From a virus, in the IMG/VR virus record IMGVR_UViG_3300009605_003067, positions 1 through 37,572 of that record: a stretch of DNA of 37,572 bases; one strand, 5' to 3'. Below the pieces are notes generated by a model. The model made no database searches, was not told where the DNA came from, and saw only the letters and a list, made by a program, of their open reading frames with translations. Shown one piece after another: positions 18,425 through 30,455 of the stretch. How positions within the stretch are numbered: position 1 is the first letter of the stretch; each line of letters opens with the position of its first letter. A program made the position numbers and the translations under genes.

Positions 18425-18717
18425 CGATTATATTGGCCTTGTTTGCTCTTGGCATGATTGTCGGTTGGTTGATCGCCACACGGGAATCCACCGACAGCAT
18501 CGAGCGATTCCGCTACAGTGACCAGAAGTTCTACGAACGGTGGAAGGCTTACTGTGAATTGGAAAAACGATTAGGGGAGAGACACGATGAACATTCTGGT
18601 CACAGGAGCAACGGGAGCACTGGGTCGGGCCGTTCTTCGTTATGCGTTGAGACAAAAGGAAACAACGAGAGTGGCAGCGTTCGCTCGGTCCGAGTCGAGA
18701 CTGACGGAACTGACTAG
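18400..18717 (+). CDS. Small membrane protein with coiled tail
   Basis: ATG 18400 gives 105 residues; GTG 18421 inside a recurring 12-mer is a possible alternative. FGGVTIILALFALGMIVGWLIAT is a membrane helix. It is followed by ESTDSIERFRYSDQKFYERWKAYCELEKRLGERHDEHS, a charged helix. The last 40 residues are Ser/Gly-rich and overlap the dehydratase gene (start 18587) out of frame by 131 bases. The true end may be earlier in evolution, or the overlap is real. Function unknown. Confidence 0.5.
   Translation: MESNFGGVTIILALFALGMIVGWLIATRESTDSIERFRYSDQKFYERWKAYCELEKRLGERHDEHSGHRSNGSTGSGRSSLCVETKGNNESGSVRSVRVETDGTD
18415..18426 (+). repeat. Recurring 12-mer GGAGGGGTGACG, copy 5
   Basis: Exact copy of the motif. 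It covers the stop of the HNH gene (TGA 18422-18424) and lies inside the small membrane protein gene. It is the only copy far from the 4.8-11.2 kb cluster. Confidence 0.7.
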
Positions 18718-19612
18718 CGAACTTGGACACTACAGCACCTTCCGTCCTTTTCTTGGCGACATACGAGACGAAGGTCGGCTCCGCGATGCCTGTGTCGGAG
18801 TGGACACAGTGATACATGGGGCAGCCCTCAAGAGAGTAGACGACGGCGCTTACAATCCGCTTGAGATGCACAAGACGAACGTAATGGGCAGCATCAACGT
18901 GGCGAACGCTGCGAGGGCTGAGGGAGTTCGGAATGTCGTGCTGGTCTCTTCCGACAAGGCGGTGTCTGCCATCAACACGTATGGCGGCAGTAAGTATCAG
19001 GCCGAGAATTGTCTGAGGGAATTGAACGCGCATTCTGCACCACGAGGCACACGGATTTCTTGTGTCCGGTATGGCAACGTGCTTGGCAGTACGGGGAGTG
19101 TGCTTACGCTCTGGCATAAACAACACCGGCAAGGTGGAAGACTGGTTCTGACTGACAAGCGGATGACCCGTTTCTGGATGACGCTCGATGAAGCGGTGCG
19201 CCATGTGTTTAAGGCGCTGCGAATAATGCGCGGCGGCGAGATTATTATTCCGATGATGCAAAGTTCAACGCTCTGGTTGTTAGCTCAGGCCTATCAGGAC
19301 GTAACTGAATGGGAAGATTGCGAGATACAGGAGATGGGCGTTCGTACTGGTGGCGAGAAACGACATGAGTCCTTAATCAATGAGGACGAGGCCACTAGAG
19401 CGATTGCCCAAAAGGGTGTCGTGGTAATTCCACCGGCTGTGCATTCGTGGACCGCTGATGAATGGAAGACCGATGGGACGGTGACTGTTCCACATCCATA
19501 CCATAGCAATGCGGTGAAATGCTGTACGCATACGCGGAAAAGTCTGCGCGGAGTTCTTGAGTCGATAGAGGGAGTGTGGAAAAGTCCCGAGGTCCGTTGC
19601 CAAGTCAGGTGA
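18587..19612 (+). CDS. UDP-GlcNAc 4,6-dehydratase-like enzyme (PseB/CapD type)
   Basis: ATG 18587 follows AGGGGAGAGA, giving 341 residues. It is an extended short-chain dehydrogenase: NAD-binding GATGALGR at the N-terminus, GDIRD, VIHGAALKRVDD, VLVSSDKAV, and the catalytic YGGSKYQAE (YxxxK). TDKRMTRFWMTLDEAV and RTGGEKRHESLI are PseB/FlaA1 signatures. Such enzymes make 4-keto-6-deoxy sugars, the first step of pseudaminic or related nonulosonic acid synthesis. It heads a sugar cassette running to 24807. The long C-terminal end (about 290-341) carries His/Cys residues of unclear use. Confidence 0.85.
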   Translation: MNILVTGATGALGRAVLRYALRQKETTRVAAFARSESRLTELTSELGHYSTFRPFLGDIRDEGRLRDACVGVDTVIHGAALKRVDDGAYNPLEMHKTNVMGSINVANAARAEGVRNVVLVSSDKAVSAINTYGGSKYQAENCLRELNAHSAPRGTRISCVRYGNVLGSTGSVLTLWHKQHRQGGRLVLTDKRMTRFWMTLDEAVRHVFKALRIMRGGEIIIPMMQSSTLWLLAQAYQDVTEWEDCEIQEMGVRTGGEKRHESLINEDEATRAIAQKGVVVIPPAVHSWTADEWKTDGTVTVPHPYHSNAVKCCTHTRKSLRGVLESIEGVWKSPEVRCQVR

Positions 19613-19806
19613 GCCTACCGTTCACGTTGACTCTGGTAGGGCGACTCACCCAATCGAGTCGTGGCGTGTGGCATGTGGTCGATAACGTAATGACCGGAGT
19701 GCGGTTTGGTTACTTCAAGGCCAAGTGCGGACTTGATACTCACTATACGTTCGACGGTCAAGCTGGAACGCTGTGTCGTAGGTGCAAAAAGTCTGGCACT
19801 GGGTAG
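19609..19806 (+). CDS. Small zinc-binding protein in the sugar cassette
   Basis: GTG 19609 overlaps the dehydratase stop (GTGA) and gives 65 residues. WHVVDNVMTGVRFGYFKAKCGLDTHYTFDGQAGTLCRRCKKSGTG contains KCG...H...CRRC, enough for one zinc site. Small proteins like this (H...C..H..CxxC) are common in phage genomes without known function. It sits 0 bases before the next ATG. Confidence 0.6.
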   Translation: MSLPFTLTLVGRLTQSSRGVWHVVDNVMTGVRFGYFKAKCGLDTHYTFDGQAGTLCRRCKKSGTG

Positions 19807-20700
19807 ATGGATAAGCAGGCCTTAGTCATTGGACTTGGTTCGATGGGTCAACGCCACCTGCAGTACATGGGAGAGCGTGCTGGTGTCTCACGGTTTGGCT
19901 GTGACAGGAGACCGGAGACGTTTCCAGACGGAGTGCCGTGTGTGCAGGACATTACACAGGCGCTTCACTGTTTCTCGCCGTCGCTTGTCGTTATTGCGTT
20001 GCCAGCGAGATATCACTTGGAAACGCTGTATCAGGTTCGACAGGCACATCCGGACGCGAGCATCTTGATTGAGAAGCCACTATCCGATCGTCCGTTGTCA
20101 GACGAGGACAAGGAACGATGTCTCAACATCGGGGGCATTGTGTGTGTCGGGTATAACTGGAGATTTCATCCGTTTGCCAAGATGCTGCACGGAGTTCGGG
20201 ATGCGATTGGGGATATCACTTTCCACGTAGGTAGTGACATGCGGACATGGCCCGGGAGTGATTACTCAGATCCGTTGCGGGAGTTTTCCCACGAGTTGGA
20301 CTTGGTTGCATATCTTACGTCCATGCCTCAGGTCACGGACGCAACCATGACTCCGCACGGTCGTTATGTTGTGGATGGATTTCATAGTCATGGTCGCTGG
20401 CGTGTTGTCATTGCTCCGTATCATGAGCCAGTCGAGCGATGGGTGAATGTGGAGATACGACCACCGGTAGGCAACGGGCGAGTAATGACATACCCGTGGG
20501 ATATGCAGTCACACACGCTGGAGGCAATGTATAGGGCGCAGTCGTTTCGGTTCCAGAGAATGTCTACGGTTGGTATCGCTTCGGCCATGGACTCATCGCG
20601 CCTGCTGTGTTCCGTGTCGGATGCGTTGATGACCACGGGGCTTATAGATAATGCCGAAGTGTTGCTGGCTCGAAAGGACAAGGGATGTCTCATTATGTAG
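19807..20700 (+). CDS. Gfo/Idh/MocA-family oxidoreductase
   Basis: ATG 19807 immediately follows the previous TAG, giving 297 residues. ALVIGLGSMGQRHLQ is the Rossmann NAD(P) loop, VVIALPARYHLE follows, and ILIEKPLSD is the hallmark EKP motif. The second domain has VGYNWRFHPFAK and a DPLREFSHELDLVAYL segment with the usual His for substrate binding. The family oxidises or reduces sugars; members sit in nonulosonate clusters next to NeuB, as here. At 297 residues it is slightly short but both domains are there. It overlaps the NeuB gene by 16 bases. Confidence 0.88.
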   Translation: MDKQALVIGLGSMGQRHLQYMGERAGVSRFGCDRRPETFPDGVPCVQDITQALHCFSPSLVVIALPARYHLETLYQVRQAHPDASILIEKPLSDRPLSDEDKERCLNIGGIVCVGYNWRFHPFAKMLHGVRDAIGDITFHVGSDMRTWPGSDYSDPLREFSHELDLVAYLTSMPQVTDATMTPHGRYVVDGFHSHGRWRVVIAPYHEPVERWVNVEIRPPVGNGRVMTYPWDMQSHTLEAMYRAQSFRFQRMSTVGIASAMDSSRLLCSVSDALMTTGLIDNAEVLLARKDKGCLIM

Positions 20701-21545
20701 AGCGTCTTGGCTTACGTGAGCGTCGGACCTATGTCATTGCCGAGGCTGGGTCATGTGGTGATGCGACTCCGAACAAGATGGCGGAACAGATCGACCGATG
20801 TGCCGATGCTGGATGCGATGCTGTGAAATTCCAGTGGACCTCAAGCGCAAAGGAGATGGCGCGCAGGCGTGGTCGTGCTACGGCAGATGGGTATGACCTC
20901 ATTTATCAGCGTTACCTTGAGTGGCCAGACGACTGGCACGCCATTCTTCAGGCTAAGTGTCAGGAGCGAGGAGTGGATTACCTGTGTTCGGTCTATCTTG
21001 CCAGCGATGTGTACGTGGTCAGCCCGTATGTCAGTCACTTTAAGGTGTCGAGCTTTGAGGCACTGGACTGGACGTTGCAGTCTCGGGCGATATCGGAATG
21101 CCTGCATTCGCTTCGGAAGTGTATGTTCGTTTCGGTAGGGATGTGCAGCGACGATGAGGTGGAAACATTGCGCCGTCAGTATGCGGCATCGCCGTTTGTT
21201 GCTTTGTTGCATTGCGTGACGGCTTACCCTACGCCCTTTGGCTCAATGAATCTGTCGTCTATTTATCGCAATGGCCTTGATGGGTTTTCCGATCACACTG
21301 ATCCCGCGATAACCATGACTGGTGCGCTAGCAGTAGCGGCCGGTGCGAGGATTATCGAGGCGCACATGCGTCTGGAGAATACAGACCCTTTGAATCCAGA
21401 CGCTGCTCATGCTATGACACCGGACCAGCTTTCGGACTACGTTTCTCGTATTCGGATGGTGGCACAGGCGATGAGTAGGCCGGAAGATGATGATGTCCAA
21501 GACAACATGCGGTGCTATCGAGTGGGAGATACCTTTGGAGACTAA
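20685..21545 (+). CDS. NeuB-family synthase (N-acetylneuraminate/pseudaminate synthase-like)
   Basis: ATG 20685 follows CAAGGG, giving 286 residues. It carries the NeuB barrel sequence: TYVIAEAGSCGDATPNKMAEQIDRCADAGCDAVKFQWTSS, HFKVSSFEALDW, MFVSVGMCSDDEVE, VALLHCVTAYPTPFGSMNLSSI, DGFSDHTD and ARIIEAHMRLENT. The enzyme condenses phosphoenolpyruvate with a six-carbon amino sugar to make a nine-carbon acid. The C-terminal SAF (antifreeze-like) domain of usual 340-350 residue members is missing, although the barrel appears complete. This might alter dimerisation or substrate choice. Confidence 0.85.
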   Translation: MSHYVERLGLRERRTYVIAEAGSCGDATPNKMAEQIDRCADAGCDAVKFQWTSSAKEMARRRGRATADGYDLIYQRYLEWPDDWHAILQAKCQERGVDYLCSVYLASDVYVVSPYVSHFKVSSFEALDWTLQSRAISECLHSLRKCMFVSVGMCSDDEVETLRRQYAASPFVALLHCVTAYPTPFGSMNLSSIYRNGLDGFSDHTDPAITMTGALAVAAGARIIEAHMRLENTDPLNPDAAHAMTPDQLSDYVSRIRMVAQAMSRPEDDDVQDNMRCYRVGDTFGD

Positions 21546-21981
21546 TCTGAGGCGGGCAACGATGGAGGACGCGGAAGCTGTTTACAACTGGCGCAACGAT
21601 CCGAAGGTGCGAGCGGTCTCCAGAAGCGTCGGCGAGATTGATTATGCCGCTCATGCGTCATGGTTCGCAGAACGTATTCCACTGACGCATCCAGAGACTG
21701 TGTGGATAATCGAAGCAGACGATGGAGTCGGGATAGGAAGCGCCCGTATCAATTGCTATGAGGACGATGATCGGGCAGAAATAAGTGTGGTGCTTGGTGA
21801 AGAGCATAGGAGTCGAGGTGTGGGTCGACAGGTGATTAAGCAGTTGGCTGACAAGGTTCGGGCAATGGGTCGGGTGCCAACTGCGTTCGTTCGACCTGAT
21901 AACAGGCGTTCCCTTAATACGTTTACGGCAGCAGGGTTCACCTATGTGCTTCCGGTGATTGAGTTACATGTCAGGGATTAG
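21493..21981 (+). CDS. GNAT N-acetyltransferase (PseH-like)
   Basis: ATGs at 21487, 21490 and 21493 lie in a row and the exact start is uncertain; the product is about 162 residues. LRRATMEDAEAVYNWRNDPKVRAVSR is the opening typical of PseH/RimJ-like sugar acetyltransferases. GIGSARINC and ISVVLGEEHRSRGVGRQVIKQLADKV carry the acetyl-CoA loop (RxxGxG). FVRPDNRRSLNTFTAAGFTY completes the fold. In this cassette it should acetylate the amino sugar precursor. It overlaps NeuB by about 50 bases. Confidence 0.82.
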   Translation: MSKTTCGAIEWEIPLETNLRRATMEDAEAVYNWRNDPKVRAVSRSVGEIDYAAHASWFAERIPLTHPETVWIIEADDGVGIGSARINCYEDDDRAEISVVLGEEHRSRGVGRQVIKQLADKVRAMGRVPTAFVRPDNRRSLNTFTAAGFTYVLPVIELHVRD

Positions 21982-23008
21982 CGTTAAGGAGAAAGAGTCG
22001 GTAAACGTGTACGGCAGGGAGATGTTTCGGAACAGCGAGACATGGGATGGGTTTGTTGATCGTCATCATGCTGGTTACTGGTGGCATCGACAGGCGTGGT
22101 TGGACTATTCGCTATCGTATGACCCGAAGGCAGTGGACCGATCGTTCGCTGTAGTCGTAAAGTCCAATGGATATCCGAGGGTGATGGCTGTCTGTCCTGC
22201 GATAGAACGGGACGCGATCATTTGCATGGGCGCAGGTGATGTGCCGTGTGCTGGTCCGTTAGTTATCGATCACCAAGACGAGACGTACACGTCGTGGTAT
22301 CGGGAAGTATTGTTAAGGAACATTCAATCACGTCTCGGTGGATGTCGCGGTTGGTGGTCGTGGAATCGAGAGCCAAGTGATTCGCGTGAACTGATTCAGG
22401 TGTTGGCAAAGCGTCTGTCCATGGGGCAGTCGGTGACAAGCACATCATTGGTATCGGTGCGGAACGAACGGGCGTGGTTTGGTTTACGTAAGAGCTATAG
22501 GTCGTTGGTGTTGTCTGCGGCTCGGGAGTACGACATCGGATACGGGTTTGCTGACCTCTGGCCGTATTACGAAATGTGCCATCGACACTGTGCCACCAGA
22601 GAGCGTGACGGTGATACCTATCTTCATCAGTTGCGATGGTTGCGTCAGGCGTCGGCGTTCGTGGTTGTAGCGTTGCCAAAGCATGGAGGGACAACGGGGG
22701 CAATGAACCCAGATGGTCGGGTGACCTCTTCATTGTCTTGGGTTGCGTCAGGTTCGGGTCCTGATCCCTCGTCTACATTGGCTGCTGCCTATGTTCTCGT
22801 GTATAAGGGGCGCGCCTACTATGCAAGTGGGCCGAGTGTGCAGAGTAACCTGCAACATGCTCTACAGTGGGCGGCGATACAGGCGGTAGCTCGACTCGGT
22901 GGACACACTTACGAGCTTGGACATCATACCGATGACGGTATCGGCTTTTTTAAGCGAGGGTTCAGTAAGGATGTTGGCAGCGTTGATGTCTTGAATGGGT
23001 ATATATGA
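21968..23008 (+). CDS. FemAB/GNAT-fold acyltransferase-like protein
   Basis: ATG 21968 overlaps the previous gene by 14 bases and gives 346 residues; GTG 22007 after AAGGAGAAAG is an alternative. The C-terminal part has AAYVLVYKGRAYYASGPSVQSNLQHALQWAAIQAVARLGGHTYELGHHTDDGIGFFKRGF, the pattern of FemAB-like or BioF2-like acetyltransferase folds (YYxxGas..., LqWxaI..A...G...YdlG, FKxgF). The N-terminal domain (SETWDGFVDRHHAGYWWHRQAWLDY) also fits. These enzymes transfer acyl or aminoacyl groups to sugars or peptides. It may decorate the sugar made by the neighbours. Confidence 0.7.
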   Translation: MSGISVKEKESVNVYGREMFRNSETWDGFVDRHHAGYWWHRQAWLDYSLSYDPKAVDRSFAVVVKSNGYPRVMAVCPAIERDAIICMGAGDVPCAGPLVIDHQDETYTSWYREVLLRNIQSRLGGCRGWWSWNREPSDSRELIQVLAKRLSMGQSVTSTSLVSVRNERAWFGLRKSYRSLVLSAAREYDIGYGFADLWPYYEMCHRHCATRERDGDTYLHQLRWLRQASAFVVVALPKHGGTTGAMNPDGRVTSSLSWVASGSGPDPSSTLAAAYVLVYKGRAYYASGPSVQSNLQHALQWAAIQAVARLGGHTYELGHHTDDGIGFFKRGFSKDVGSVDVLNGYI

Positions 23009-23688
23009 CCAGACAAGTGGTGGCAATCATACAGGCGCGCCTTGGAAGCTCTCGATTTCCTCGGAAGTCACTGGCTATGTTCAAGCATCGGCCGATGATC
23101 GAGCATGTGATCCAGCGTGTCCAGCAAGTGCCATTGATTGACGAGGTTGTGGTGACGATTCCAACGCTGGATAAAGCGTTGATTGATGTCGTTCGGGACT
23201 ATGGTTCTCGACTGGTGAACACGGATGTCGGGAATCGCCCAGTGCGTATCGCGTGTGGTCCAGAGCAGGACGTTCTTCTGCGGTACTGGTTGGCGGCGTG
23301 CGAGTATCAAGCCGATGTAGTGGTTCGCGTGACAGGCGATTGCCCGCTGTGGTCATCTAAGGCTGGAAATACAGTGGTGAAAGCCTTCCTTGAGGATAAG
23401 AAGCGTCGAGCGTTTTGGTCGAACGATACGACCTTGAGTGGGTGGCCAGACGGAACTGATGTTGAGGTGTTCTCGATGGATCTGCTCCGTCAGGCACGGA
23501 ACGCTCGGAGTACGCTAACGAATGACGATCGGGAACACGTTACGACGTGGATGAGGAGGCAACTGCATGGGAAGTGTGGTGTGGTCTATCGCAAGGAGGA
23601 CAACATCTCGTCCCTCAAGTTATCGGTCGACACGATTATGGATCTCTTGAGGATTGAGACATTCGATGAGGCGTTATTGCATGGATGA
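23005..23688 (+). CDS. SpsF/NeuA-like cytidylyltransferase
   Basis: ATG 23005 overlaps the previous stop (ATGA) and gives 227 residues. VVAIIQARLGSSRFPRKSLAMFKHRPMIEHVIQRV is the nucleotide-binding signature of the SpsF/NeuA family. GPEQDVLLRYWLAACEYQADVVVRVTGDCPL follows (D of the metal site), then SNDTTLSGWPDGTDVEVFS. It should activate the nonulosonic acid or a related sugar as a CMP derivative. Such enzymes stand next to NeuB and class III aminotransferases in glycan clusters. It overlaps the aminotransferase gene by 8 bases. Confidence 0.85.
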   Translation: MTRQVVAIIQARLGSSRFPRKSLAMFKHRPMIEHVIQRVQQVPLIDEVVVTIPTLDKALIDVVRDYGSRLVNTDVGNRPVRIACGPEQDVLLRYWLAACEYQADVVVRVTGDCPLWSSKAGNTVVKAFLEDKKRRAFWSNDTTLSGWPDGTDVEVFSMDLLRQARNARSTLTNDDREHVTTWMRRQLHGKCGVVYRKEDNISSLKLSVDTIMDLLRIETFDEALLHG

Positions 23689-24712
23689 AAGCAAATTATT
23701 GGAACGTGCGCGTCTGGTAACGCCCGGTGGCGCACAAACTTCCAGCCGGAGACATGGGAATGTTGGTCCCCGTTCTTATCCACCGTTTGCAACACGAGGA
23801 GAAGGAGCGTATTTATACTTCAACGACGGCACAAGAGCGATTGATTTGGCTGGGTCGAATGGCGCGGCGGCGCTTGGCTATGCTCATCCAGAGGTCGTGG
23901 CGTCCGTAGAGCGATACATAGGCAGTGGGTGTACCTTGTCGTTGCCGACTGGCCTTGAAGTTGAGGCATCGGAGGCGATGATCCGAGGCTTTGACTATGA
24001 TGTCGCGGTGCGGTGGGTTCGTACAGGAAGTGAGGCTGTATCTGCTGCGGTCAGCGTGGCGCTTGAGGCGACAGGTCGTGAGGCTGTTGCCGCGTTGGAA
24101 GGCTCCTATCACGGCTGGCATCCGTGGACCAGAAAGGTTTCTCGTTACGAGAGTGTGGATAAAGTGCCATTGGAGAATGTGGCAGCGTTGCTGATTGAGT
24201 CTCCTCGATGGCGTGAGGTTGATAACGATTACATTGTCTCCCTTCAACGGATACGGAACCTGTGCAATCGGCATGGTGCCTTGTTGATATTCGATGACGT
24301 AGTGTACGGATTTCGTTTTGCCGTAGGTGGATTAACCGAAACAACTGGCGTCCGGTCCGACCTGTCCTGTTTTTCTAAGGCGCTTGGCAATGGAGTGCCG
24401 GTTGGGTGTGTGGTTGGTTCAAGGGACCTAATGATGCGCACTGGTTATCGAGTTAGTAGCACGTTCGGTGGGGAGACAGTTGGCTTGGCGGCAGCCAGAG
24501 CGGTGCTGGCATTACATGCGGAGTTCGATGTATGCGGAGAGCTACGCGAGATGGGAAGACGATTACGATCTGACCTCGACGATGGCTTGCGGTCGTCTCC
24601 GATACGGGTGGAGGGAACACCGCAGCATTTCCGCTTCGTCTCTGACCACCCAAATACTTTGGAGCGTTTTTTGACTTTATGTATGCAGCAGTCAGGAGAT
24701 GCTCGGTGCTGA
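23681..24712 (+). CDS. Class III PLP aminotransferase (HemL-like), zero-frame product
   Basis: ATG 23681 gives 343 residues in the zero frame. It has LVTPGGAQTSSRRHG, DLAGSNGAAALGYAHPEV, WVRTGSEAVSAAVSVAL, EGSYHGWHPWT, LLIFDDVVYGFRFAVGG and CFSKALGNGVPVG with PLP-lysine K233: a glutamate-1-semialdehyde-aminotransferase-like enzyme. It would aminate a keto sugar of the cassette. The zero frame ends early (...LERFLTLCMQQSGDARC). The missing conserved C-terminus, VLIHRDANNINLMMNESI, is encoded in the -1 frame up to 24807. Slippage at 24667-24673 would give 375 residues. Confidence 0.85.
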   Translation: MDESKLLERARLVTPGGAQTSSRRHGNVGPRSYPPFATRGEGAYLYFNDGTRAIDLAGSNGAAALGYAHPEVVASVERYIGSGCTLSLPTGLEVEASEAMIRGFDYDVAVRWVRTGSEAVSAAVSVALEATGREAVAALEGSYHGWHPWTRKVSRYESVDKVPLENVAALLIESPRWREVDNDYIVSLQRIRNLCNRHGALLIFDDVVYGFRFAVGGLTETTGVRSDLSCFSKALGNGVPVGCVVGSRDLMMRTGYRVSSTFGGETVGLAAARAVLALHAEFDVCGELREMGRRLRSDLDDGLRSSPIRVEGTPQHFRFVSDHPNTLERFLTLCMQQSGDARC

Positions 24713-25364: not shown

Positions 25365-25408
25365 ACGAGATATTCGGCACGTTCGGTGCGTTGTCGGCGT
25401 TACGGCGC

Positions 25409-25540
25409 GCACCGAATGCACCAAATGAGCACCGAATCAGCACTGAATGCACCGAATCAGCACCGAATCAACCGAACTCGCACCGAACGTGCGCCGAACA
25501 TACCAAACGTGCGCCGAACACACCGCATACGCGCCAAACC
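25409..25540 (+). repeat. Iteron-like tract of about 13 imperfect 9-11 bp repeats
   Basis: Units follow the consensus GCRCCGAAYNN: GCACCGAAT, GCACCAAATGA, GCACCGAATCA (three times), GCACTGAAT, GCACCGAACGT, GCGCCGAACAT, GCGCCGAACAC and diverged ACCGAACTC/ACCAAACGT units. GTTCGGTGCG in inverted orientation lies just upstream at 25381-25390. An AT-rich stretch (ACTGTATTTATAGCCTTAAAC) follows. The 11-bp phase, about one helical turn, suits a protein-binding array such as a replication origin or an operator for the gene at 25578. Confidence 0.7.
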
Positions 25541-25577
25541 ACTGTATTTATAGCCTTAAACGGACCGTATAAGCCGA

Positions 25578-26384
25578 ATGAATGTTAGAGAGACCCTTGC
25601 TTCTTTAATCGAGCCACTACCTACGCCTCTGCCCATTGCAACATCTGGGGGAATAGACTCTTCGTCGCTGACATTAGCGGCTAGGGATGCAGGAAAGGAC
25701 CCGATTATTGTCTCTTTTACGTTGGCCGATCGGGAGTCGGCTGACTTTGTGGCAGGCCGTAAGCTCGCTAATCACTTTGGATTTGAGTTTCGGCCAGTGA
25801 TTCTTCCTGTGGATACAGATGTTATCTGTGGAGACGTGATTCGGCTCATTCGGCGCTACGGTGCTCGCCGTAAAACAGCCATCGAGTGTCTCTGGCCGTA
25901 TTTGCACGTCTTGGAAACCCTCAAGTCCTTAAATCATTCAGTCCTCCTTACTGGTAATTCCGCTGACGGACACTTCGCTCTGTCACGCAAGGCGATGGTT
26001 CGTTATAGGGTGCGAGAGTCTAAGGAGCAATTCCAGCTGTTCAGACAGCACTTCTACGCCAATCCCGAGTCATCCCAGATTGGCTTTTTGCATCGTATCT
26101 ATTCACAGGAGAACATTCAGGTCCATACCCCGTGGTTTGATCCAGCGCTGTTTGCCCTGTTTGAGGATTGCACGTGGGAAGAAGTGAATAAGCCGAGACA
26201 AAAGGAAGTTGTCCGCGTGGAATTTCCAGAGTTGGATACATTGCACATTGCTGGCTACTCGCCATTGCAGCTTGGCGATTCTGGGATCGCTTCAACGGTA
26301 GGCGATGCTGTCAGGAGGCGATATGCCCCAGAAGCCAAGTCTCCCATTCGCGCCTACAACCTAATCGCTCAGGCCTCATCATGA
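25578..26384 (+). CDS. Asparagine-synthase-like N-type ATP pyrophosphatase without glutaminase domain
   Basis: ATG 25578 gives 268 residues. IATSGGIDSSSLTLAA is the PP-loop (SGGIDSS, residues 23-29) of AsnB-type amidotransferases. IIVSFTLADRESADFVAGRKLANHFGFEF, VLLTGNSADGHFALSRKAM and TPWFDPALFALFED match the synthetase domain that adenylates a carboxylate. The N-terminal Ntn glutaminase domain of AsnB is absent, so it must use ammonia or another amine, or an unseen partner. It overlaps the methyltransferase by ATGA. In this setting it could amidate a carboxyl group on DNA; that is inference. Confidence 0.78.
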   Translation: MNVRETLASLIEPLPTPLPIATSGGIDSSSLTLAARDAGKDPIIVSFTLADRESADFVAGRKLANHFGFEFRPVILPVDTDVICGDVIRLIRRYGARRKTAIECLWPYLHVLETLKSLNHSVLLTGNSADGHFALSRKAMVRYRVRESKEQFQLFRQHFYANPESSQIGFLHRIYSQENIQVHTPWFDPALFALFEDCTWEEVNKPRQKEVVRVEFPELDTLHIAGYSPLQLGDSGIASTVGDAVRRRYAPEAKSPIRAYNLIAQASS

Positions 26385-27496
26385 AACCTGCCTATGTAGT
26401 GCCGACGCTTGCTGAAGTGGAATCGCTTTCATGGAATGGCCTGAATGTTGTGTCGACCTTTAGCGGTGGTGGTGGATCGTGTCTTGGGTTTCGCATGGCA
26501 GGCTATCGCACATTGTGGGCCAGTGAGTTTATTCCGCTGGCAGCAGAAACCTATCAACTGAATCATCCGAACGTGTTCTTGGACACTAGAGACATCAGGC
26601 AGGTGCATCCTGATGACATTCTCAAGCGAGTGCCGTCTGGTGAATCGGTGCATGTGCTGGAAGGCTCGCCGCCTTGCGCTGCATTCTCGTTGGCTGGCAA
26701 GCGAACAAAGGGATGGGGTCAGGTAAAGAAGTATTCCCAGACCGAACAGCGCGTTGATGACCTGTTTGAGGAGTTCCTTCGACTGGTCGCTGGCGTCCAG
26801 CCGTATGTTTTTATTATGGAGAACGTGAAAGGTCTTATCGGCGGTGCGTCGAGTGGCGTGCTGCAGGACACACTGGAGACGATGCGAGCGATTGGCTATC
26901 GCGTGCAGGCTCGGGTGCTAGATGCTCAGTGGTTGGGTGTCCCGCAGTCTAGGGAGCGTGTCATCTTTCAGGGTGTACGCCGTGACCTTAATCGTCAGCC
27001 GGTATGGCCTAAGCCGCTCAACTATCAGTATTCGATTAGGGAGGCTGTGCCTAGTCATGTGCTACGACATGCACATGGAGCTCCGTTCCCGAATCATGTC
27101 TTTGGCAAGACGTATGCTGGTGAAACCTTTGTAAGCAGTGTCGCTAATGATGTGCCTGAGCTTACAAAGAACGATCAGGCTCGGGTGCACTACGTGTTTG
27201 GTCATGGACATGCTAACTTCCTTCAACGTGGACAGCCCCTCTCGCTGAATAAACCAGCTCCGACTATCATGGCAACGGCCGATAGCGTCGAGAAGCACCT
27301 TAAAACCAACTGGGCAACCTATCGCCGTCGTCTAAGCATGGATGAATTGCGTCTCCTCTGTTCGTTCCCGTCAGACTTTCGATTGGCGGGCGAGAGTTAC
27401 ATCAGGCAATGGGAGCGTTTTGGTCGAGCGGTGCCACCATTGATGATGCGAGCGGTGGCAGAAACGATACGGGATAAGATTTTTGGCCCTGTATAG
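26381..27496 (+). CDS. C5-cytosine DNA methyltransferase with motif X Asn-to-Arg change
   Basis: ATG 26381 overlaps the previous TGA, giving 371 residues. Motifs: I VVSTFSGGGGSCLGF (27-36), IV EGSPPCAAFSLAGKR with catalytic C99, VI MENVKGL (E147), VIII LGVPQSRERVIFQGVR, and a target-recognition stretch before motif IX. Motif X reads ERFGRAVPP, where family members read xxxGNAVPP or GNSV: the near-invariant Asn is R349. From memory, engineered C5 enzymes with Lys/Arg at this site (M.MpeI N374) accept carboxy-SAM. With a CmoA homologue next door, transfer of carboxymethyl rather than methyl is likely. Ordinary methylation is the alternative. Confidence 0.9.
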   Translation: MKPAYVVPTLAEVESLSWNGLNVVSTFSGGGGSCLGFRMAGYRTLWASEFIPLAAETYQLNHPNVFLDTRDIRQVHPDDILKRVPSGESVHVLEGSPPCAAFSLAGKRTKGWGQVKKYSQTEQRVDDLFEEFLRLVAGVQPYVFIMENVKGLIGGASSGVLQDTLETMRAIGYRVQARVLDAQWLGVPQSRERVIFQGVRRDLNRQPVWPKPLNYQYSIREAVPSHVLRHAHGAPFPNHVFGKTYAGETFVSSVANDVPELTKNDQARVHYVFGHGHANFLQRGQPLSLNKPAPTIMATADSVEKHLKTNWATYRRRLSMDELRLLCSFPSDFRLAGESYIRQWERFGRAVPPLMMRAVAETIRDKIFGPV

Positions 27497-27511
27497 TCCG
27501 AGACGGGAAAT

Positions 27512-28249
27512 ATGATGAGGGATACAGTAGAGCCTGACGGTGCGTGGGTGTTCGACACTACGGTGGCAGCGTCCTTCGACGACATGTTGGAGCGTTCGAT
27601 TCCACAATATTCAGTAATGCGAGACGCTGTAACGGGAATCGGCTGTCGATTCATGGATAAGGTGCAGGGACACGGCACGATTATCGACCTTGGATGCTCT
27701 CGGGGAGCGGCCCTTGCCCCGTTTGTTGACCGTTACGGTCAGTCGGCTCGGGTGCATGGGATAGAAGTCAGCCAACCTATGCTCGACGAGGCGCGCACCC
27801 TGTTTGCTGAACCCATCAAGTCGGGCATCGTTACGTTGGAAGGGATTGACCTACGAACAGACTGGCCCACGATTGACACAACCGTCCACCCTAATTACCT
27901 CACACTGTGTATCCTGACGTTGCAATTCATCCCGATGGAACATCGGCAGCGACTCTTGGCTAGCGTCTTCCAGACGATGGAGTCTGGTGGCGCGTTCATC
28001 TTGGTAGAGAAGGTGCTCGGCGCAACCAGTTCGCTCGATACGGTCTTCAAAGGCGAGTATTACCAACTCAAGCGTGAGCATGGCTACTCACAGGAATCTA
28101 TCGACCGGAAGCGACTGAGCCTTGAAGGTGTGCTGGTGCCTGTCACGGCAGAATGGAATGAGGGCCTGCTCAGGCAGACAGGCTTTCAACAGGTCGATTG
28201 CTTCTGGCGCTGGATGAACTTCGCCGGATGGGTTGGAGTTAAGCCTTAA
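27512..28249 (+). CDS. cmoA: CmoA-like carboxy-S-adenosylmethionine synthase
   Basis: ATG 27512 (or 27515) gives 245 residues, the length of bacterial CmoA. WVFDTTVAASFDDMLERSIPQYS matches the CmoA opening (WtFDexVAeVFpDMIqRSvPgYs). DLGCSRGAA (59-67) is the SAM loop; TLQFIPMEHRQRLL and GGAFILVEK follow. KREHGYS (187-193) and DRKRLSLEGVLVP keep the Arg (R201) that equals E. coli R199, thought to hold the carboxylate of prephenate/Cx-SAM. CmoA makes Cx-SAM from SAM and prephenate, normally for tRNA wobble uridine by CmoB; no CmoB is seen here. It probably feeds the adjacent DNA methyltransferase. Confidence 0.88.
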   Translation: MMRDTVEPDGAWVFDTTVAASFDDMLERSIPQYSVMRDAVTGIGCRFMDKVQGHGTIIDLGCSRGAALAPFVDRYGQSARVHGIEVSQPMLDEARTLFAEPIKSGIVTLEGIDLRTDWPTIDTTVHPNYLTLCILTLQFIPMEHRQRLLASVFQTMESGGAFILVEKVLGATSSLDTVFKGEYYQLKREHGYSQESIDRKRLSLEGVLVPVTAEWNEGLLRQTGFQQVDCFWRWMNFAGWVGVKP

Positions 28250-28597: not shown

Positions 28598-29053
28598 GTG
28601 GACACTATAAAAAAGACTCGGCGCAAAGGTGGACGCCCGAAGGGTAGTAAGGCGAAGGGATCGGGCGAGTGGAAGCCTGTGTTCCTGTCTGTCCTGCAGA
28701 CGATGCCAGTGGTGCGTATAGCGTGCCAGAAGGCGGGGATCTCTCGGTCGGAAGCGTACAAGGTGCGGTCGTCTGATCCAGAGTTTGCGCTGGCATGGCA
28801 ACAGGCGCTACAGGACGGCGTTGATATGATTGAGGCCACTCTTCATGCACGGGCGCGGAAGAGTGATACGGTTGCGGCCATCTTCCTGCTGAAGAACCTG
28901 CGACCTGAAGTCTACGGCGAGAATGTCAACGTGAACGTAAGTGGGTCGCTTTCCATCGAGGAAGTCAGTCAGGCGCGGGCCTCATTACATGCCAAGCTCA
29001 CCCAAATTGCCAGCACCGTCGCCCCCGGCGAGAGACGGATCACTGTCGAATGA
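28598..29053 (+). CDS. terS: Terminase small subunit
   Basis: GTG 28598 gives 151 residues. The N-terminus is basic (KKTRRKGGRPKGSKAKG). VFLSVLQTMPVVRIACQKAGISRSEAYKVRSSDPEFALAWQQALQDGVDMIEATLHARA is the helix-turn-helix plus oligomerisation helix found in many phage TerS proteins (VxxACxxAGISRxxxYxxRxxDPeFaxxWxxA). AIFLLKNLRPEVYGENV is a common continuation. It binds the packaging site and loads TerL. The large subunit gene starts inside its end. Confidence 0.85.
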   Translation: MDTIKKTRRKGGRPKGSKAKGSGEWKPVFLSVLQTMPVVRIACQKAGISRSEAYKVRSSDPEFALAWQQALQDGVDMIEATLHARARKSDTVAAIFLLKNLRPEVYGENVNVNVSGSLSIEEVSQARASLHAKLTQIASTVAPGERRITVE

Positions 29054-30455
29054 ATCACTGGCGGTACTGACGGCGGCTGACCAGAGTGTTACGCAAGAGA
29101 TCCTAGACAGTCTCACTCCAGCAGAGGCAGCCCTGCTTCGCTATGAGTGGAGGTTCTGGGCGCGACCAAACCAATTAGCTCCAGCAGGCGAATGGGGTAT
29201 CTGGTTACTGATGACTGGTCGAGGCTTTGGGAAGACCAGAGCGGGTTCGCAGTGGGTCATCGAACAGGCGCAACACCCGGGACATCGTATTGCCATCGTC
29301 GGTCGTATCCCTGCTGACTGTCGGGACGTCATGGTTAACGGCGAGTCCGGCATCTTGAGGTGCAGCCCTCCAGACTTCCGTCCGCTCTACGTGCCAAGTC
29401 AACGTCTCTTGAAATGGCCGAACGGGTCAGAGGCGAAACTGTTCTCCAGTGAGAAGCCTGCCGACTTACGTGGCCCAAACTTCCACTGTGCATGGATTGA
29501 TGAGTTGGCGAAGTATGACCAAGCACAAGAGACATGGGACACACTGGTCATGGCGGTGCGTCTCCCAGACGAGCCGCGCATCGTGGTAACGACTACGCCT
29601 CGGCCCATCCCTGTCATCAAACGATTAATGGACGACCCGGCTACCCACATCACGCATGGTTCCATTTATGACAATCGCACAAACCTAAGCGCCAAGTTCT
29701 TTGAACGTCTCATCAAACGGTATGAGGGAACCTATCTTGGTCGACAGGAACTAGAAGGACTCCTTATAACGGATCGTCCCGGGGCGCTGTGGGCGCGGTC
29801 GACCTTAGAGAACCAGCGGGTGTCTGTTGCGCCAGAGGAACTGTCTCGTATCGTCGTGGCGATTGACCCACCGGCAACCGCATCTGAGGATAGCTCCGAA
29901 GCGGGCGTCGTGGTTGTTGGTCGTGCGAGTGACGGAACGTCCTACGTCTTGGCTGATGGCAGTCTGCATGGCACGCCAGATGAATGGGGTCGACAGGCTG
30001 TGAGGCTGTATGACCAGTTTGAGGCAAACCAGATTGTGGGTGAGGTGAACAACGGGGGCGACATGGTGGGCTTCACTGTGCGGGAGTGTGCCAAGGCCCT
30101 ACATCGTGATGGTGAACGCGAGACCAGCGCAGTGCCATACGTGCCAGTGCGTGCTAGTCGCGGCAAGCTCACCAGAGCCGAGCCTGTGTCTGCTCTGTAT
30201 ACCCAAGGGCGAGTGAAGCATGTCGGCGTCTATCCAGAACTGGAAGACCAATTGACCTCATGGTTGCCGGGAGAACAATCGCCCGATCGCTTGGATGCAC
30301 TGGTGTGGGCGTTGACATCGTTGGTCATCTACAGCGGTGATGACATCGAGACATGGGGTGGCGCTGACACCGCGTCCGAATCGAGCGAACACGTTCGGGA
30401 TGTTGTGAAACATGAAGGGTCATGGTTTCCGTCTGGTGTCTCGTCTCGATGGTGA
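28989..30455 (+). CDS. terL: Terminase large subunit
   Basis: ATG 28989 overlaps terS by 65 bases and gives 488 residues; 28941 is an upstream alternative. The ATPase has WLLMTGRGFGKTRAGS with Walker A at 77-83, CAWIDELAKY with Walker B acids D171/E172, and VVTTTPRP as coupling motif III. The RNase H-like nuclease has VVAIDPPATASEDSSEAG (first Asp), VGEVNNGGDM and DRLDALVWAL (last Asp). It drives DNA into the prohead and cuts it. Sequence type is close to the large Terminase_6 family of HK97-like and transducing phages. Confidence 0.95.
   Translation: MPSSPKLPAPSPPARDGSLSNESLAVLTAADQSVTQEILDSLTPAEAALLRYEWRFWARPNQLAPAGEWGIWLLMTGRGFGKTRAGSQWVIEQAQHPGHRIAIVGRIPADCRDVMVNGESGILRCSPPDFRPLYVPSQRLLKWPNGSEAKLFSSEKPADLRGPNFHCAWIDELAKYDQAQETWDTLVMAVRLPDEPRIVVTTTPRPIPVIKRLMDDPATHITHGSIYDNRTNLSAKFFERLIKRYEGTYLGRQELEGLLITDRPGALWARSTLENQRVSVAPEELSRIVVAIDPPATASEDSSEAGVVVVGRASDGTSYVLADGSLHGTPDEWGRQAVRLYDQFEANQIVGEVNNGGDMVGFTVRECAKALHRDGERETSAVPYVPVRASRGKLTRAEPVSALYTQGRVKHVGVYPELEDQLTSWLPGEQSPDRLDALVWALTSLVIYSGDDIETWGGADTASESSEHVRDVVKHEGSWFPSGVSSRW

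Follow-up and report, generated by a model that had tools for sequence, protein, structure and literature searches.

Three intact open reading frames (ORFs) on the plus strand at positions 25578–28249 of IMG/VR virus record IMGVR_UViG_3300009605_003067 (37,572 nucleotides, analysed whole and referred to here as the window) encode an AsnB-type ligase, a C5-cytosine methyltransferase, and a CmoA-like protein, and quite probably constitute a CmoA-CmoX-CmoY cassette for the hypermodification of phage DNA. Such a trio was described by Yang and colleagues (Nat Commun, 7 Dec 2025; PMC12783734) in Synechococcus phage S-B43, where, according to the available parts of that report, CmoA generates carboxy-S-adenosylmethionine (carboxy-SAM), CmoX produces 5-carboxymethylcytosine (5cxmC) in GC motifs, and CmoY ligates glycine, the resulting glycine amide 5gcxmC having been found in native phage DNA. 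No further description of the system in phages was found in the literature searched. Judged by sequence tests, the window trio belongs to this kind, the sole caveat being the TIGR00740 cut-off considered below. Gene content and order, an Arg in motif X of the methyltransferase, family membership, and predicted fold were read directly from the window. An initial annotation of this DNA had recognized the three adjacent genes and predicted a new cytosine modification; the ORFs are intact and profile matches confirm their families, but the modification chemistry had already been published for another phage, so that the window is a further example rather than a new kind.

All proposed reactions are carried over from the published S-B43 enzymes. 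First, the CmoA-like protein would convert S-adenosylmethionine and prephenate into carboxy-SAM. The CmoX-like enzyme would then transfer the carboxymethyl group to C5 of a DNA cytosine, with C99 attacking C6 and R349 holding the cofactor carboxylate. Finally, the CmoY-like ligase would cap 5cxmC with a small amine, for instance glycine. By analogy, 5cxmC is a highly probable product and its capping by the amine ligase very probable; the amine itself, the sequence targeted, and any advantage to the phage, such as disguise of its DNA, can only be inferred.

The likeness to S-B43 (MN018232) comprises the adjacency of the same three families, the motif X Arg, a stand-alone ligase devoid of a glutaminase domain, and the lack of a CmoB match. 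The two cassettes differ in gene order (ligase-CmoX-CmoA in the window, CmoA-ligase-CmoX in S-B43), and identities between their products amount to 28–29% (ligase), 35% (CmoX), and 29% (CmoA). Whereas S-B43 is a cyanophage with a 214-kb genome, the window trio has ParB-like and terminase genes as neighbours and resides on a 37.6-kb contig (49 kb in a sister contig), and its CmoA retains the equivalent of E. coli Arg199 where SpCmoA has Glu.

The Methyltransferase and the Motif X Arginine

Among PDB sequences, SpCmoX (8yf3) is the best match of the window methyltransferase (2.1e-50), followed by M.HaeIII (9.7e-25). The nucleophile, C99, is located within an SPPC motif (residues 96–99), and the SpCmoX cofactor residues F25, E47, F48, and D69 are matched in the alignment by F27, E49, F50, and D71. 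In motif X, which reads RFGRAVPP, R349 takes the place of Asn at the position of M.HhaI N304 and SpCmoX R350; the Asn-type enzymes compared read GNxVP where the window enzyme has GRAVPP. It is this residue that bears out the initial annotation's expectation of a substitution suited to carboxy-SAM. N374 of M.MpeI is presumably the motif X Asn as well. In the engineered carboxymethyltransferase M.MpeI N374K, a basic active-site residue likewise permits the use of carboxy-SAM, the Lys being engineered there whereas the Arg of the window enzyme is natural (PMC12783734, available parts). The same source states that R350 of SpCmoX contacts the carboxymethyl group of carboxy-SAM, that the R350N mutant loses activity, and that SpCmoX accepts carboxy-SAM only, and it reports 5,615 CmoX sequences with SPPC and Arg, with ParBc neighbours noted (PMC12783734).

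Relatives of the three families were collected from 242 loci, corresponding to 193 groups once identical core proteins had been collapsed; scans kept their best 80 loci each, and locus counts are no census. CmoA and a C5-methyltransferase, the pairing that the initial annotation proposed to look for in other phages, occur together in 117 of the 193 deduplicated groups, and an alignment of all 117 places Arg in the R349 column in 116. The exception is L005 (3308–5826) of Staphylococcus phage vB-SscS-F1, whose motif X reads VGGVIN; CmoA and a CmoY-like ligase here adjoin a C5-methyltransferase lacking both the motif X Arg and SPPC. Thirteen C5-methyltransferase matches occur in groups without CmoA: motif X holds Asn in four, Arg in four, Leu in one, and Cys in one, and three are unreadable (two cut, one a weak 31-bit match). 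Since the loci of this first set had been picked by CmoX-like queries, a second scan was seeded with four Asn-type enzymes. Its 73 distinct loci (7 of 80 were dropped as duplicates; 5 of the 73 lie on first-set contigs, one of them a seed) comprise 50 with Arg and CmoA, 22 with Asn and no CmoA, one with Arg and no CmoA, and none with Asn and CmoA (Fisher 9e-18, kinship uncorrected). In the single Arg-type locus without CmoA, L316, the gene begins at the contig edge. This association supports a simple sequence rule for recognising carboxymethyltransferases. Together with homology to the SpCmoX crystal structure, the co-occurrence of Arg and CmoA also supports the predicted route from carboxy-SAM to 5cxmC put forward in the initial annotation.

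In Erwinia phage pEa_SNUABM_5 (L321; MW366843, 30052–32157), an Arg-type C5-methyltransferase (LGRVCVP) is split by an insert which appears intein-like by eye and is positioned exactly at the catalytic SPPC (SPPC-FLRD...VVHN-CKGF).

The CmoA-Like Protein

The 245-residue protein is filed as CmoA-like and is a predicted carboxy-SAM synthase. Arg199 of E. coli CmoA, which salt-bridges the carboxymethyl group according to the available parts of PMC3663124, is kept as R201. Across 177 phage CmoA sequences (179 minus two shorter than 200 amino acids), this position holds Arg in 92, Glu in 73, and other residues in 12; as the proven SpCmoA has Glu there, Arg199 was dropped as a decisive sign of carboxy-SAM synthesis. 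CmoX-bearing loci lie nearest to the window CmoA in a FastTree tree, and the protein is 51–56% identical to CmoA of loci encoding a ParB-ParB-methyltransferase fusion, described below. A carboxy-SAM synthase is common to the window and the bacterial CmoA/CmoB pathway that forms uridine 5-oxyacetic acid (cmo5U) in tRNA. Unlike in that pathway, the CmoA neighbour is a DNA cytosine enzyme and CmoB (TIGR00452) is unmatched in the window record, in agreement with the initial annotation; nor was a TIGR00452 match obtained in the complete S-B43 genome or in four IMG/VR contigs, which are possibly fragments.

The CmoY-Like Ligase

Because a phmmer search of the window ligase against PDB sequences gave no match up to E 0.1, a fold search was carried out with an AlphaFold model (predicted local distance difference test score, pLDDT, 94.4). 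The underlying alignment contained 63 of 83 ligases, with longer-type, named-phage, and near-identical rows left out. In VIA-align comparisons, the model matches human asparagine synthetase (ASNS, 9b6c_B; Z 22.8, 2.7 Å, 253 residues) and beta-lactam synthetase (1mc1_A; Z 22.4, 3.3 Å, 252 residues), the predicted structure agreeing with both over the whole synthetase domain. The 268-residue ligase lacks the N-terminal glutamine amidotransferase domain of glutamine-hydrolysing asparagine synthetase, and a Pfam scan of 30 window ORFs revealed no glutaminase domain. Glutaminase-bearing CmoY-like ligases (the A0A7T0Q3R0 cluster in the available parts of PMC12783734; L139, L112, and L103 here) are likewise AsnB-type enzymes beside CmoX, but differ from the window ligase in possessing this N-terminal domain. 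The three numbered examples are those scanned against Pfam, all with the domain, among nine longer ligases (451–490 amino acids) found beside CmoX.

In an 83-row ligase tree (two of 85 sequences were dropped as short; midpoint-rooted for drawing only), 74 stand-alone rows form a clade (100/100) separate from the nine longer, glutaminase-type rows. The window ligase and SpCmoY share a 54-row subclade (86/87), in which the former occupies its own 47-row clade (100/99) next to that of SpCmoY. Common to both is the segment DG[HY][FY]xxS[KR]KA, where most of the longer type read DELFGGY, and the catalytic and family motifs of SpCmoY are present in the window ligase. This homology lends support to a further proposal of the initial annotation, that the ligase may act on the carboxylate. 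With the search pattern applied, the collection of bacterial genomes yielded a single ligase relative (L322, Bacillus sp. M6-12, 33% identity).

Alternative Explanations

Because no glutaminase domain accompanies the ligase, which is placed with SpCmoY in the tree, a free amino acid, glycine first, is the likelier amine, and the predicted product is likelier to be 5-glycylcarboxymethylcytosine (deoxycytidine +115) than 5-carbamoylmethylcytosine (+57). The latter, the amide named in the initial annotation, would require ammonia as the ligase substrate. The AsnB-type fold would suit such a reaction, glutamine-derived ammonia has been proposed for the glutaminase-bearing cluster (PMC12783734, available parts), and the longer ligases beside CmoX carry the amidotransferase domain wherever scanned; yet with no glutaminase on the window ligase or among the 30 window ORFs scanned, and with a ligase that falls in with SpCmoY and its segment rather than with the longer type, the ammonia reaction is improbable and 5-carbamoylmethylcytosine is unsupported as the product. 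A non-glycine amine, such as another amino acid, a polyamine, or an amino sugar, is possible though rather unlikely. The low identity to SpCmoY and the well-supported separate 47-row clade leave room for it, and several ligase clusters are described as having distinct active-site residues and unknown amines (PMC12783734, available parts); against it stand the catalytic and family motifs common to the window ligase and SpCmoY, and the seven upstream sugar genes, unmatched in 305 other loci with flanks of 4–10 kb at most, provide no linked amine source. There is, similarly, a modest chance that the 47-row clade caps 5cxmC with an amine so far unreported in DNA, which would give the window phage a novel DNA base. 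On balance, glycine is the amine we somewhat favour.

An explanation dispensing with carboxymethylation would have the methyltransferase produce 5-methylcytosine and CmoA serve cmo5U formation in host tRNA. The C5-methyltransferase and CmoA families include members which make 5-methylcytosine and members which serve tRNA, respectively. Moreover, E. coli CmoA can feed CmoX (PMC12783734, available parts), so a phage CmoA is not indispensable for carboxymethylation and could have another use. This explanation is nevertheless scarcely credible given that R349 replaces the motif X Asn, that Arg tracks CmoA, that SpCmoX accepts carboxy-SAM only (PMC12783734), and that CmoB is unmatched in the window record. 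Several observations do weigh against assigning the trio to the CmoA-CmoX-CmoY kind. In the first set, CmoA is absent from the loci of four Arg-type enzymes, and a nearby CmoA is therefore not strictly required; one of the four, L161 (6950–7969), has about 7 kb in view to either side of an Arg-type enzyme that might be served by the host CmoA. The window CmoA reaches 139.2 bits against a TIGR00740 equivalog cut-off of 193.3; the proven SpCmoA also stays below it (115.6 bits), so the cut-off misses a phage enzyme of shown activity. The ligase is only 28–29% identical to SpCmoY. Lastly, the nearest relatives of the three window proteins lie in different contigs (FastTree), suggesting that several lineages probably contributed to the block. 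Such assembly argues for joint use of the trio, but the parts of a mosaic cassette need not keep the partners they had in S-B43.

Genomic Setting of the Cassette

The window is a phage contig with genes for the terminase small and large (TerL) subunits, portal, protease, and capsid (Table 1). The initial annotation's coupling by ATGA overlap holds for the ligase and methyltransferase genes; a gap of 15 bases separates the methyltransferase and cmoA genes. The terminase genes begin about 350 bases downstream of the latter, and the true start of the TerL ORF is probably further in, given its overlap with the small-subunit gene. An assembly accident is excluded as the origin of the block by three further IMG/VR contigs, whose ligase and methyltransferase proteins are 100% identical to those of the window. 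Nor is the trio due to chance, given that many other contigs combine members of these gene families.

Table 1. Coordinates of the cassette and flanking features in the window
Feature	Position	Strand	Evidence or remark
ParB-like protein, 182 aa	24816..25364	+	phrog_620 ParB-like 1.2e-14, phrog_498 2.8e-17
Degenerate GCACCGAA(T/C) repeat array	25372..25541		fills gap between ParB-like gene and cmoY; inverted copies at left end
CmoY-like ATP-dependent amide ligase (predicted), 268 aa	25578..26384	+	PF00733 Asn_synthase 1.6e-8; phrog_26038 2.3e-31
CmoX-like DNA cytosine C5-carboxymethyltransferase (predicted), 371 aa	26381..27496	+	PF00145 8.2e-49; best PDB match 8yf3
R349 codon (motif X Arg)	27425..27427	+	aligned with SpCmoX R350
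CmoA-like carboxy-SAM synthase (predicted), 245 aa	27512..28249	+	TIGR00740 1.7e-40; phrog_4752 2.4e-63; PDB 1im8, 4gek
R201 codon of CmoA-like gene	28112..28114	+	equivalent of E. coli CmoA Arg199
Terminase small subunit	28598..29053	+	phrog_4044 6.1e-14
Terminase large subunit	28941..30455	+	PF03237 3.7e-26, PF17289 7.4e-12

With contig ends disregarded and many close kin included, the 117 loci with CmoX and CmoA contain a ligase in 76 cases, ParB in 98, and TerL in 68; the ParB-ligase-CmoX-CmoA-TerL order of the window occurs in 35. Of the 47 rows in the ligase clade to which the window belongs, 43 show the order ligase-CmoX-CmoA, and the remaining four loci are cut short. The ParB-like protein of the window has no Pfam match, and an alignment of 98 reveals a C-terminal CPxCxYxW tail in many of its relatives. 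Where upstream DNA is visible, ParB precedes 12/17 Asn-type and 24/26 Arg-type methyltransferases at a distance of up to 1.5 kb, and TerL follows 7/14 and 14/37, respectively, within 4 kb. The ParB-like gene and terminase were rejected as specific cassette parts because both recur beside ordinary Asn-type enzymes, and for the same reason they look like an older setting which CmoA and CmoY have entered.

The GCACCGAA(T/C) repeats between the ParB-like gene and cmoY may have a binding role. As a general cassette operator, however, the array is unsupported when judged by gap length: the cassette gene that follows the ParB-like gene lies at a median distance of -20 (98 loci), and the gap exceeds 150 bases in 24 of these 98. 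Further upstream (18587–24712), seven sugar/amine genes resemble a cytidine monophosphate-nonulosonic acid pathway, encoding a Polysacc_synt_2 epimerase/dehydratase, a GFO_IDH_MocA oxidoreductase, a NeuB-type synthase, a GNAT protein, a product without Pfam match, a cytidylyltransferase, and a class-III aminotransferase. Out of 50,697 phage records, a single one matched the window NeuB at E 1e-5, and all seven genes lacked a blastp match (1e-5) in the 305 other loci, whose flanks reach 4–10 kb at most; as a source of the ligase's amine they are thus unsupported. An earlier neighbour clustering reached 4 kb and so covered four of the seven.

A ParB-ParB-Methyltransferase Fusion beside CmoA

A fusion of two ParB-like domains and a class I methyltransferase domain (phrog_5475; about 505–560 amino acids where uncut, for example L181 4928–6520 and L227 5448–7004) is encoded upstream in 44 of the 62 CmoA loci without a detected C5-methyltransferase, and in none of the 117 loci with CmoX and CmoA. 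Among the 18 CmoA loci lacking the fusion, 11 begin no more than 1.2 kb before cmoA, with the upstream place mostly out of view, four belong to Erwinia/Yersinia-type jumbo phages with a C5-methyltransferase elsewhere in the record, and three (L006, L189, L198) show neither fusion nor C5-methyltransferase in view. PF00145 had no match anywhere in the records of seven loci that encode the fusion or in those of L006 and L189; L191, kin of L189, has a match far away in its record. In a model of the L181 fusion (pLDDT 83.2; numbering of a 504-residue piece), residues 222–462 match METTL6 (8owx_A; Z 13.8, 3.1 Å, 188 residues) and residues 2–117 match ParB bound to cytidine triphosphate (7bnr_A; Z 12.1, 1.9 Å, 93 residues). 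The available parts of PMC12783734 report a search in which no N6-adenine or N4-cytosine carboxymethylating candidates were found beside phage CmoA. Neighbourhood and mutual exclusion with CmoX, the sole grounds for inferring carboxy-SAM use, make the fusion a candidate for a second kind of enzyme dependent on this cofactor. If it does use carboxy-SAM, the fusion would open another route, one absent from the literature searched and possibly more novel than the window trio.

Implications

With the window trio, a chemistry known from a single cyanophage is extended to a phage far removed from it, about two-thirds of the residues being different in each of the three enzymes. Cassettes of this kind may be of use in mapping the amines which phages attach to their DNA and as a source of enzymes that would place a reactive carboxylate on DNA.

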